36,633 nucleotides of DNA from contig CACPGB010000005.1 of the NCBI GenBank assembly GCA_902633515.1, positions 1-36,633 on the forward strand, in the 5' to 3' direction. Shown here piece by piece: positions 24,581 to 27,839 of the stretch. Within the stretch, counting starts at the first letter, position 1. Each line of letters opens with the position of its first letter. Both the position numbers and the translations under genes were made by a program. Source of the DNA: an uncultured Pelagibacteraceae bacterium (GTDB lineage Bacteria; Pseudomonadota; Alphaproteobacteria; Pelagibacterales; Pelagibacteraceae). The notes under the pieces were generated by a model. It had not been told where the DNA came from and searched no databases. It saw only the letters and a list, made by a program, of their open reading frames with translations.

Positions 24581-24703
24581 ATGAAAACTTTAATACTATT
24601 AACTTTAGTAATTGTTATTGGTTGGGTATTATTTAGACCCATTACTCAAAAAGAGCTTGATAGATATAATAATAAAAAAAATAGACCAAATTTAGATTTG
24701 TAA
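24581..24703 (+). CDS. small single-TM protein (40 aa)
   Basis: Unlisted ORF MKTLILLTLVIVIGWVLFRPITQKELDRYNNKKNRPNLDL immediately after the SHOCT-like gene. Confidence 0.6.
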   Translation: MKTLILLTLVIVIGWVLFRPITQKELDRYNNKKNRPNLDL

Positions 24704-24746
24704 TAAAATCAATTGCATTACATTCGTTTTAATTATAGATTCTCAC

Positions 24747-24810
24747 TACCATATCTCATGGTGAAAAAGAGGCCGATATCGCATCGGTTAAAAGCGAGTT
24801 TTGGAAAACT
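24747..24810 (+). promoter_or_regulatory. three-hairpin leader upstream of a 63-aa ORF
   Basis: TACCAT-atctc-ATGGTG (24747-24763), CCGAT-atcgc-ATCGG (24773-24787), AGTTT-tgga-AAACT (24797-24810), followed by AAGGAG and ATG. Confidence 0.6.
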
Positions 24811-24824
24811 AACAAGGAGAGTGT

Positions 24825-25016
24825 ATGAAAAGAATGCACAGAATACTAAGTTTGTTTAGCCGAGGCTCAAAAAATGCAAGGCTAAATGAACTTATGTTTC
24901 GAAATGCAAAAACTGTAAATGCTAACGACAATGGCACAAGTGGTTATTTAGTAAAGTCAGGAAAAAATAGCGGAAAAATCCTGGGACATATAAGAAGTCG
25001 GTCTAAAGTTATTTAA
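24825..25016 (+). CDS. small basic hypothetical protein (63 aa)
   Basis: MKRMHRILSLFSRGSKNARLNELMFRNAKTVNANDNGTSGYLVKSGKNSGKILGHIRSRSKVI with good Shine-Dalgarno AAGGAG. Confidence 0.65.
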   Translation: MKRMHRILSLFSRGSKNARLNELMFRNAKTVNANDNGTSGYLVKSGKNSGKILGHIRSRSKVI

Positions 25017-25072
25017 GTTCATTGGGGTATGGGGTAACAACAAAATAGTACTTAAAAAAAAAGGAGTTATTA

Positions 25073-25132
25073 ATGAGTGGATTAGAAATATTAGCAGTAG
25101 TTGCTGTCGTATATTATTTTATGAACAATTAA
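25073..25132 (+). CDS. 19-aa hydrophobic micro-ORF
   Basis: MSGLEILAVVAVVYYFMNN preceded by AAAAAGGAGTTATTA-ATG. Confidence 0.5.
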   Translation: MSGLEILAVVAVVYYFMNN

Positions 25133-25139
25133 AACCTAC

Positions 25140-25171
25140 GGGGTCAGGGGCACCTGGCAACAGAACGCCCC
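25140..25171. repeat. GC-rich stem-loop motif, copy 1 (ends ACAGAACGCCCC)
   Basis: GGGGTCAGGGGCACCTGGCAACAGAACGCCCC: outer GGGG/CCCC, inner CAGG-GGCA-CCTG. Confidence 0.8.
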
Positions 25172-25216
25172 ATATTAAAGGATTCCGTTAACCTAACTAA
25201 TTTTTATAAAATAAAG

Positions 25217-25248
25217 TTCAATGAAGGTTCAATGAAGATTCAATGAAG
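25217..25248. repeat. three tandem TTCAATGAAG repeats (11-nt period)
   Basis: TTCAATGAAGgTTCAATGAAGaTTCAATGAAG; each contains the palindrome TTCA-A/T-TGAA. Confidence 0.9.
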
Positions 25249-25266
25249 TTTGAAAACAATTTCAAA

Positions 25267-26370
25267 CTATTTCACTATTTTTAAATGTCTTTTTTTTATT
25301 CTTTTTTTTGACTTTTTAATTTGCATTTCAATTGCTAACTCAATTTTTTTATCTTTGTTAACCTTCTTTAACTCATTCTCAATTTCTTTTTCCATTTTAT
25401 AAATTAATCTTTGTATTTCTGCTGGCGCCCTAATACTAAATCGGGTCACTATTTTTAGGAAAGTTTCTAGATATAATTTTCGATTTCCTCTTGGGATGGT
25501 AGAGGAAATTGCTTGTAATACATAATCAATATCATGTTTGCCTTGAAATTTATCAATTATCTTTTTTGTTAATTTAAATGATTTTACATCCAAATACTTT
25601 TGTTCAGGTCGTTCCCAATACGCACATCCAACTGGATCTTTTGGGTATTTCTTTATAAGAGATTTATATTTTTTTTCGAACATATTGAATATTTCAATAT
25701 TTACTGCGCTTTCTACATGCAAAATACTTTTTGCCTTAAATTTTTTTCTAATTTTGAAATTATCATCAAAAAATTTTTTGAACTCAGCACCAATATAACC
25801 ATATTGCTGACCATAAAATTTTTCTTTTAGGTGTTTTGTATATTTGTATCTATACTCTTTTAAATCAACTTTATTAATATCTAAGATTTTTGCTTCAATT
25901 GTAATGTTGCCATCTTTATCATGCTTGTCTCCTAAACGATTTATATCTGCTATAGGAATAAAACCTGCGAAATAACCAAATCTAGCATCTTTCAATGTTG
26001 TTTCTGAAAAACTAAAAGTTTCATAAGTATCAAGTTCTTTGTCTATATAATATTCAGATAAATAAAATTTGCTTAAAGACCAAAAATGATGAAGTTTATT
26101 AAATTTATGCTGAAACTTTAAAAAATGTTTATAAATAACATCAAAGTCTAATTTATAACACTCGCTTTTATCAACTCTATAATAGTCAAATTTGTTTTTG
26201 AAAGACCATTCGAGATCTTGATCTAATCCATCAATTTCAGAAAAAAATTTAATTTTTAAACTTGGATTTGATGTTTTATAGGTAGTTAACCTTTTTTTAA
26301 TTCGATCTAATGAGGATGCAACGCCAACTTTATAATAATTTTTAATTTTTGTTGTGCAGTAAAAAAACAT
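25267..26370 (-). CDS. T5orf172/MUG113 (GIY-YIG-like) domain protein
   Basis: N-terminus MFFYCTTKIKNYYKVGVASSLDRIKKRLTTYKTSNPSLKIKFFSEIDGLDQDLEWSFKNKF resembles T5orf172-type GIY-YIG relatives; the remainder is unrecognised. Confidence 0.7.
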   Translation of the reverse strand: MFFYCTTKIKNYYKVGVASSLDRIKKRLTTYKTSNPSLKIKFFSEIDGLDQDLEWSFKNKFDYYRVDKSECYKLDFDVIYKHFLKFQHKFNKLHHFWSLSKFYLSEYYIDKELDTYETFSFSETTLKDARFGYFAGFIPIADINRLGDKHDKDGNITIEAKILDINKVDLKEYRYKYTKHLKEKFYGQQYGYIGAEFKKFFDDNFKIRKKFKAKSILHVESAVNIEIFNMFEKKYKSLIKKYPKDPVGCAYWERPEQKYLDVKSFKLTKKIIDKFQGKHDIDYVLQAISSTIPRGNRKLYLETFLKIVTRFSIRAPAEIQRLIYKMEKEIENELKKVNKDKKIELAIEMQIKKSKKRIKKRHLKIVK

Positions 26371-26429
26371 TCTTAAATTTTACCCTAACTCTTAATGAAG
26401 TTTAAAATTTATCGTATTTACCTTGTTCA

Positions 26430-27035
26430 TTACTCATATTCTCTTCGCAACTCTGACATTGTCTTTCCGTTATAACTCCACCAAATTGGTCCTTGAACTG
26501 CTGCCCAGTCATAACCCATATCTCTTAAAACAATATCTGCAGCATCTGATAATGATGTGATTTTATCTCTAAACTTTACTTTTGTATCATCATGAATTTC
26601 ACAAGTAATTGTCTTGTCTTTTACAAATTCTAAGATTGTACCTGGTTTTAAATTAATCATGTCAAAATTAAATTTTTTTCTAATTTTTCTAGCATTTTCT
26701 AGTGCCTGCTTATCTTGAGGTGTTTCAACAATATCATCAGCAGGAGTAACATTTTTACCTCCCATGACCTCTGCTATTTCTAAAATTGCTTTTGCTTGTT
26801 CGGGTGTTGAATTAAAAAATTCTCTGTTTTGTCTTATTCTTTTATCATCTAAACCCTCATGAATTTTTTTTTCAATAACCTTTGCGTCTTGAACTTCAAC
26901 TGCATAATAACACTCAAATGGAAGTGGTGTAGATGTGTTATCCAACTCCTTCATTCTTCTTTCAAGGTTATCTGTAATGCCAATTTTAATAGTATCAGGC
27001 ATCGATTGATTTGTTAAAATATAAACTATTTTCAT
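26430..27035 (-). CDS. GIY-YIG/T5orf172-like protein with possible DUF4357-like C-terminus
   Basis: KIVYILTNQSMPDTIKIGITDNLERRMKELDNTSTPLPFECYYAVEVQDAKVIEKKIHEGL; C-terminal WAAVQGPIWWSYNGKTMSELRREYE. Confidence 0.82.
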   Translation of the reverse strand: MKIVYILTNQSMPDTIKIGITDNLERRMKELDNTSTPLPFECYYAVEVQDAKVIEKKIHEGLDDKRIRQNREFFNSTPEQAKAILEIAEVMGGKNVTPADDIVETPQDKQALENARKIRKKFNFDMINLKPGTILEFVKDKTITCEIHDDTKVKFRDKITSLSDAADIVLRDMGYDWAAVQGPIWWSYNGKTMSELRREYE

Positions 27036-27056
27036 AAATGTAATTTTACCCCAATT

Positions 27057-27122
27057 CTCAATGAAGTCTAGAAACGGAGTTTTTGAAAAAAGGTCAAACT
27101 TTCAATGAAGTCTTCAATGAAG
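27057..27122. repeat. further TCAATGAAG copies upstream of the second GIY-YIG-like gene
   Basis: CTCAATGAAG at 27057-27066, TTCAATGAAG at 27101-27110 and 27113-27122. Confidence 0.85.
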
Positions 27123-27162
27123 TATTTAAATAACCTAGGTATTTTGGTATGATTTGGTTCTC

Positions 27163-27181
27163 GGGGGACACAGAACGCCCC
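27163..27181. repeat. GC-rich stem-loop motif, copy 2
   Basis: GGGGGACACAGAACGCCCC: GGGG/CCCC stem, same 12-mer ACAGAACGCCCC. Confidence 0.8.
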
Positions 27182-27272
27182 TATAAAAAAAATAATCATT
27201 AAAACTCAATAGTTTTTTAATAATAAAAATAAAAAAAAATTATTTACTGACTATGTACGATGCCTTCAAGAC

Positions 27273-27695
27273 TCAAAATTTACTTTCTTTAAAATATTCT
27301 TTTATGTCTTTTTGAAATAAAAGGTAAATACAAGAAATCTGTAATAAAGTATTTAAAATTAAAATAGATCTTACTGCCAATTCATTAAATCCTATTTCTG
27401 GTATAGGTCCATAAGGAACAGCAAAACTTACATTTATTGCCCCAATTAAATCTAACAAACCAATCACATTCCAAGAAAGCAAAAGACCCCAAAGTATAGT
27501 GCTCGGTTTTTTTATAATGTGGTAAACTAAAAATAAAGCAGTTGTCCCAATAAAAAAGTCGCCCACAAAAGGAGCTATCCATTCGGACGATGCCGAACGC
27601 TCATTTTCAGTAAAGATCCAAAACAAAAACAAACCTGACCCAACTGCTCTGAATGACATCCATCCAGTTACAAAAATAATCCAATTTAATTTCAT
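27273..27695 (-). CDS. hypothetical multi-TM membrane protein
   Basis: 140 aa with about four hydrophobic segments; no family recognised. Confidence 0.7.
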   Translation of the reverse strand: MKLNWIIFVTGWMSFRAVGSGLFLFWIFTENERSASSEWIAPFVGDFFIGTTALFLVYHIIKKPSTILWGLLLSWNVIGLLDLIGAINVSFAVPYGPIPEIGFNELAVRSILILNTLLQISCIYLLFQKDIKEYFKESKF

Positions 27696-27817
27696 TTAAG
27701 AATTATATATCAAAAAAAAATCTCAATTACAAAGTCGTCACAAAGAAATCATAGTTTAACCATGTACACTACTATGTACCTTTCGAGAAACCTATAATTT
27801 CTGATATAAACTCAATT

Positions 27818-27839
27818 GGGTGGAACAACAGAACGCCCC
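27818..27839. repeat. GC-rich stem-loop motif, copy 3
   Basis: GGGTGGAACAACAGAACGCCCC; same 12-mer. Confidence 0.78.

Follow-up and report, generated by a model that had tools for sequence, protein, structure and literature searches.

Why does the same 12-mer, ACAGAACGCCCC, recur in one orientation at the edges of small gene modules in a 36,633-nt stretch of DNA from an uncultured Pelagibacteraceae bacterium (contig CACPGB010000005.1 of assembly GCA_902633515.1; hereafter, the window)? A sequence-only reading had pointed out three exact copies, proposed that they could be ends of a small mobile element, recombination sites, or a new structured RNA or processing signal, and recognized no described family. 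All three copies are present, on the + strand throughout, at 25160-25171, 27170-27181 and 27828-27839, and they do separate modules, with successive copies delimiting units of 2,010 bp and 658 bp. At ≤2 mismatches the window contains five matches, compared with 0.42 expected by chance, and none of 100 shuffles attained five. Within the 667-kb partial genome, the exact 12-mers are the window's three, plus one copy with a single mismatch elsewhere. This copy (ACAGAACGCTCC; L004:781-792, G000:C26) lies directly after the stop codon of a superoxide-dismutase-like gene and is possibly a decayed or secondary site. (Here and below, G### denotes a genome, L### a locus or contig, and L###_n a cassette at that locus.) We consider it quite likely that elements integrating at the ssrA 3' end use the motif as their attachment (att) core, and that the modules are non-autonomous attachment-site cassettes mobilised in trans.

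The motif closes the coding piece of the permuted alphaproteobacterial transfer-messenger RNA (tmRNA) gene ssrA, as its final 12 nt (RF01849 alpha_tmRNA; ARAGORN agrees), and this supplies the described family that had gone unrecognized. Matches to RF01849 at ssrA loci score 213-243 bits, end at the motif and carry the tag ANESYALAA or ANDKFALAA; in most genomes one motif copy comes after AACGAAAGTTACGCACTTGCTGCTTAATTAA, which codes for the end of the tmRNA tag. Copy 1 in the window is longer than the 12-mer: over 34 nt (25138-25171, ACGGGGTCAGGGGCACCTGGCAACAGAACGCCCC) it matches the 3' tails of ssrA in relatives. The window copies are not themselves tmRNA genes, since RF01849 gives the 3' tail alone at copy 1 (31.9 bits), and Rfam searched at gathering thresholds returned only tRNAs in the window, with RF01849 not above the cut-off.

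The hairpin at this end is the tmRNA's own. Among 21 distinct sequences from other Alphaproteobacteria, all six base pairs showed double (i.e., compensatory) changes and pairing was 99.2%, with a covariation of 0.67 compared with 0.20 after shuffling. Because these compensatory changes are class-wide, the stem between the G-run and CCCC is tmRNA structure and not a new RNA. The G-runs described by the sequence-only reading are found upstream of the window copies, but the stem is not constant among displaced copies elsewhere. Each of the 16 distinct ssrA copies shows the GGGGC side of the stem, while 17 of 73 distinct displaced copies have no G-run of at least three and a further 5 have GGG only (background for any such run, 8%). 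Thus, the stem erodes in displaced copies while the 12-mer persists.

Comparison of related loci revealed that units are inserted precisely at the ssrA end. In L015 and L031, a minus-strand gene directly follows ssrA, representing an empty site. Cassettes lie between ssrA and this same sequence in L041 (1,086 bp), L027 (1,193 bp) and L068 (1,504 + 1,123 bp), and these insertions end at a motif copy (the right copy in L027 has one mismatch). A second empty form, in which only ~25 bp separate ssrA from tRNA-Leu(gag), was found in L006, L017, L019, L028, L030, L069 and L102; tRNA-Leu(gag) lies directly behind ssrA at 12 of 76 ssrA loci. Insertions bounded by direct repeats of the ssrA 3' end, with empty sites in relatives, identify these units as site-specific ssrA elements. 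The idea that the copies are module ends or recombination sites is thereby supported, by occupied and empty sites together with the tandem arrays, the cassettes common to different sites and the cognate integrase described below. Although the motif belongs to a known Rfam family, an outcome that the sequence-only reading had listed as counting against it, module boundaries do coincide with the motif, and the interest therefore lies in the cassettes and not in the motif.

Units are also inserted precisely at secondary sites, and the same units occur at different sites. Relatives of cassette 2 that are 87-93% identical occur in L040 (the ssrA array of G025, at 92% identity), L106, L008 and L025, and the left and right ends of cassette 1 enclose other genes in L048, L066, L068 and L071. 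In the window's partial genome (59% complete) ssrA was not detected, and RF01849 matched the tail of copy 1 and nothing else, which indicates that the window array sits at a secondary site. Its right neighbour is xsc, encoding sulfoacetaldehyde acetyltransferase. In G061 (L066), the left flank is shared with the window (89% identity, 24582-25034), as is the right neighbour xsc (85%), but the cassettes between them differ. We did not recover a clean empty version of the site beside xsc, where the junction is variable in relatives, though M23 adjoins xsc in G009. Between a half-site ('TGGGGTATGGGG') and copy 1, the window contains ~103 bp (25035-25137) with a tiny open reading frame (ORF), MSGLEILAVVAVVYYFMNN, that is missing in G061 (L066:3396-3398); the left edge of this secondary site underwent rearrangement.

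The motif is widespread in the genus. We sampled mostly incomplete single-cell assemblies, and counts are those of samples; the 12-mer was present in 167 of 201 genomes, including 29 of 29 that are at least 90% complete. Genomes usually contain one copy and sometimes three to six in tandem on one strand, 0.2-5 kb apart. Arrays begin exactly at ssrA in G157, G114, G034, G042, G095, G025, G091 and others. Of 45 ssrA loci in a second set, each with at least 2.5 kb of sequence downstream, 17 carried another copy within that distance. Matches among public species genomes were almost all from Pelagibacteraceae, chiefly single-cell genomes, and closely spaced motif pairs occur in complete or near-complete genomes too (e.g., G322 and G504). 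Beyond this genus, the sequence occurs in four more genera of the family and in none of 30 genomes from the order's other family.

From the window and 39 loci we extracted 78 units between successive copies. They span 204-5,810 bp (median ~1.0 kb), carry one to five genes with a median coding fraction of 0.81, and orient 106 of 141 ORFs antisense to ssrA. Many cassettes bear phage-defence genes, and the cargo gave several matches in PADLOC. Among the cargo are two type I restriction systems, N4/N6 DNA methylases, McrB-like N-terminal domains and T5orf172 proteins. Trypsin-like proteases, small membrane proteins, and polysaccharide-lyase, adhesin and inverse-autotransporter domains are also encoded. 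A 110-aa protein of no known family (MQQ[QL]ELFDFRRD...) recurs in cassettes of L047, L048, L050, L059 and L063 that have differing right ends; its ORF adjoins restriction-modification genes in some cassettes, and a similar 111-aa ORF occurs in L045. The smallest cassettes (204-245 bp) are L035_4, L055_1, L059_1, L061_1, L062_3 and L070_1, and in five of these six a single short ORF of 56-68 aa, on the ssrA strand, and the core make up the unit, with no arm repeats; such same-strand mini-cassettes could be read through from ssrA.

Many cassettes contain short direct repeats 40-100 nt inside both ends, whose sequence varies among cassettes and matches within a cassette (e.g., TACGGGAT in L053_1, TGGCACA in L041_1, ACTCGTC in L043_1 and CACGAAGT in L063). 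We take this paired layout to be that of the arm sites of lambda-type integrases. In a local-match permutation test of the left and right ends of 70 cassettes, the summed match was 1052, compared with a maximum of 847 in 5000 re-pairings, and a cassette's own partner ranked in the top three for 24 of 70. In the window, exact CAATGAAGT, the repeat at both ends of cassette 1 (25219-25249 and 27059-27123), is confined to that cassette.

We next consider which recombinase could act on these sites. A profile search that covered 2,340 ORFs detected no integrase at the array loci. The PF00589 proteins comprise one Xer-like core recombinase per genome, distant from the arrays, plus occasional prophage integrases. 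A serine recombinase was rejected as the actor, as PF00239 is absent from 43 genomes. Searching 399 genomes with phage-type integrases, which sets a lower bound on helpers, revealed an integrase (PF00589, phrog_1) directly behind ssrA in two, G161 and G266, and both elements use the same core. In G161 (L494), two motif copies enclose a complete element of 6,173 bp, with a 343-aa integrase ORF that starts 66 bp behind ssrA, a number of small ORFs and a primase-like protein of 733 aa (DUF5906, phrog_1156). The sequence GAAACAAAGTTCGGGGCACCTGGCA at the right end of this element recurs in the integrase-less cassettes L036_1, L042_1, L044_1 and L058_1, the second of which also has a similar left end. 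The integrase of G266 (L495) is 52% identical to that of G161 and is preceded by TTGGCGTCATGGTGGCGTCA, which is identical (20/20) to the right arm of the integrase-less cassette L064_2; the sole other match among the loci searched, in cassette L057_2, has mismatches. Used as queries, the two integrases retrieved no further full ssrA-linked copy. An N-terminal integrase fragment lies ~70 bp behind a motif copy in the array of G263 (L538). L067 (G028:C12) is an array apart from ssrA whose copies have a common, distinct right end ('agcacggtctggggcaccgggtaACAG'), and the same family flanks the fragment in L538. The G161 and G266 elements thus encode the cognate integrase; none was found in the window or among the cassettes sampled, so that these can be no more than non-autonomous members of the ssrA elements.

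No attP-like element was present among the matches listed for IMG/VR, which were phage-borne whole tmRNA genes and chance coding matches instead; no cassette DNA was found in phage records, and the G161 element had no close relative in IMG/VR (two distant matches, 26-29% identity). Eight phage contigs of IMG/VR (L076, L077, L078, L079, L082, L083, L085 and L088) bear the 3' end of a permuted tmRNA, and its GGGGCACCTGGCAACAGAACGCCCC tail is the same; SAR11/OM43 myophages have been reported to carry two-piece tmRNA (PMC9004378).

In the mechanism that we propose, integration would leave ssrA intact and place a further core copy at the insert's distal end; through repeated rounds, an array in one orientation would build up. 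The typical unit would be a non-autonomous cassette, i.e., a cargo gene or operon plus the core, often with lambda-Int-like arm repeats inside both ends, and rare autonomous elements at the ssrA site (one of which has a primase too) would supply the tyrosine integrase. Most cassettes, having no recombinase of their own, probably borrow one from these rare helpers; the integrase most likely acts in trans on the cassette core and arms, integrating and excising cargo-only cassettes, presumably as circles. Arm diversity would then mirror the diversity of helper integrases, cell-to-cell transfer could proceed by satellite packaging, transformation or other means, and the cargo may benefit the host. 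We give roughly even chances to a broader proposal, that SAR11 possesses an integron-like cassette system on the permuted tmRNA gene in which arms serve as 'addresses' for diversified trans-acting helper integrases and cargo circulates apart from the recombinase.

Several observations weigh against mobilisation in trans. In about half of the cassettes, the left and right ends form no convincing arm pair; many A-type cassettes bear repeats on the right alone, and those of 204-245 bp lack them altogether. Helper integrases occur in only 2 of 399 genomes, with an exact arm match for only one cassette/helper pair, and neither a circular intermediate nor any excision or transfer was observed. At secondary sites, the left edge bears the full 34-nt ssrA tail, contrary to a simple one-crossover integration into a foreign site. 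Finally, the 12-mer itself served to retrieve the array copies, and part of its invariance is therefore due to ascertainment.

A rival reading is a history of decay, in which autonomous ssrA elements inserted time after time, lost their integrases by deletion and left fossil remnants that are no longer mobile, arranged as accretion islands and shuffled only by homologous recombination between cores and conserved flanks. The integrase fragment in L538, the rarity of helpers, the mutated state of some motif copies and the high rate of homologous recombination in SAR11 (PMC2217521) are all in keeping with such islands. We nevertheless regard this history as unlikely, because matching arm repeats persist at both ends of many cassettes, the same cassette occurs in different sites and neighbourhoods, and the compact, largely coding cassettes are unlike the remnants of random deletion.

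That the single core tyrosine recombinase of the host (the 'HVR2 integrase' of hypervariable region 2, ~318 aa) instead runs an integron-like system on the hairpin core alone, with arms incidental, strikes us as very improbable. It is the only PF00589 protein in most genomes, and the smallest cassettes, with one ORF, a core and no arms, would suit it. However, in the complete genome G012 its gene is at ~617 kb, close to the GC-skew maximum, with ssrA at 956 kb, no motif-like sequence within 2 mismatches surrounds the gene, the protein is Xer-like in appearance, and arm matching and the ssrA-linked integrases would be left unexplained. We attach almost no weight to the remaining suggestion, a new structured RNA, or a processing or termination signal between transcription units. 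In ssrA the hairpin does exist and is under selection, but it is the RF01849 hairpin with its class-wide covariation, and displaced copies often keep the 12-mer without the G-run, so that stem erosion already refutes a structured RNA for them; moreover, most cargo ORFs are antisense to the motif and no U-run follows it.

The cassettes share features with several known systems. CIMEs (cis-mobilizable elements) are units flanked by attL and attR that lack a recombinase, accrete in tandem with an autonomous element and are mobilised in cis with an integrative and conjugative element; the SAR11 cassettes are likewise att-flanked and recombinase-less, but measure hundreds of bp to a few kb and usually have no resident autonomous element. 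Integrons resemble the arrays in their tandem cassettes of one orientation, mostly with one to three genes, bounded by recombination sites and with the recombinase outside the cassettes. The SAR11 arrays differ in that no IntI is adjacent (none in the sampled arrays; the HVR2-type recombinase lies elsewhere), the core is the ssrA end and, by visual comparison, not attC, many cassettes have arm-type repeats, and most genes are antisense to the site. An earlier survey (Wilhelm 2007) found no attC in SAR11 variable regions and placed an integrase gene in HVR2 (PMC2217521). Elements targeting tmRNA or tRNA genes, such as vcr-GEI and the ssrA islands of Dehalococcoides, also integrate at the ssrA 3' end and are flanked by short ssrA direct repeats; the Dehalococcoides islands have tandem direct repeats (11 in strain VS) and share tandem accretion and a streamlined host genome with the SAR11 arrays (PMC2764846). 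Those islands have an integration gene block beside ssrA, whereas most SAR11 arrays have no recombinase, and the SAR11 units are of gene-cassette size, many with paired arm repeats, and target the non-tRNA-like 3' end of permuted ssrA. The additive flexible genomic island of 'Ca. Methylopumilus', with repeats of the last 20 nt of tRNA-Lys and a size of 330 bp to 42 kb, is similar in its variable size, recurring RNA-gene 3' ends and streamlined pelagic host, and differs in RNA gene and class; arm repeats or a helper/cassette relation are not described in the available part of that source (PMC10872708). Phage-inducible chromosomal minimalist islands (PICMIs) are minimal phage satellites with an integrase, a DUF5906-type primase and defence cargo (PMC10803314). 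The G161 element, a candidate satellite, likewise is ~6 kb, site-specific and equipped with an integrase and a DUF5906-type primase, but it targets ssrA and not a fis-adjacent site and has no AlpA match; the SAR11 cassettes do without even int and primase. We found no description of ssrA cassette arrays in SAR11 in the literature searched, and since subscription papers were mostly outside that search, their novelty is provisional.

SAR11 bacteria are among the most abundant in the ocean and are highly streamlined, and the route by which they acquire variable genes is a standing question. With a docking site that is defined and precisely bounded, gains and losses of cassettes can be counted directly in metagenomes and single-cell genomes, and the cassettes provide an inventory of small accessory genes, with defence and surface functions among them. 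The candidate integrase/att pair is a possible genetic tool for a group that is hard to manipulate.

The features of the window array are listed below. Of the two cargo genes of cassette 1, which had been called GIY-YIG-like, the shorter is supported by its domain match and the longer is not.

Features of the cassette array in the window
Feature	Position	Strand	Remarks
Attachment-site copy 1	25138..25171	+	Left boundary of the array; matches SAR11 ssrA 3' tail (BLAST 94-97% over 34-35 nt, ssrA tails of many genomes)
Cassette 1	25172..27181	+	2,010 bp; right-end family E; includes attachment-site copy 2
Cassette 1 left arm-type repeats	25219..25249	+	Three 9-bp CAATGAAG[GAT] units, 11-bp pitch
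Cargo gene, 367 aa	25267..26370	-	No Pfam or NCBIfam match
Cargo gene, 201 aa	26430..27035	-	T5orf172 domain (PF10544, E 8e-20)
Cassette 1 right arm-type repeats	27059-27067, 27103-27111, 27115-27123 (span 27059..27123)	+	CAATGAAGT
Attachment-site copy 2	27170..27181	+	Left-hand part CTCGGGGGAC is part of cassette 1's right end
Cassette 2	27182..27839	+	658 bp; includes attachment-site copy 3
Cassette 2 left arm-type repeat	27250..27259	+	ACTATGTACG
Cargo gene, 140 aa	27273..27695	-	Predicted membrane protein; no Pfam match
Cassette 2 right arm-type repeats	27761..27780	+	CATGTACAC / ACTATGTACC
Attachment-site copy 3	27828..27839	+	Right boundary of the array

Our searches also turned up tyrosine recombinases at other loci. 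SAR11 genomes usually have one Xer-like enzyme of 305-318 aa beside sugar-biosynthesis genes (L089-L091, L096-L098; G012:C1:616685), which may represent a single-recombinase Xer system. Integrated elements with integrases of 424-443 aa lie near tRNA-Leu(tag) in L092, L093, L094, L467 and L468; they resemble known cases of pelagiphage integration, and three adjoin the trigger-factor gene. A second group of integrases (~326 aa) lies directly beside tRNA-Met(cat) in several SAR11 genomes (L507, L510, L511 and L470-L474).

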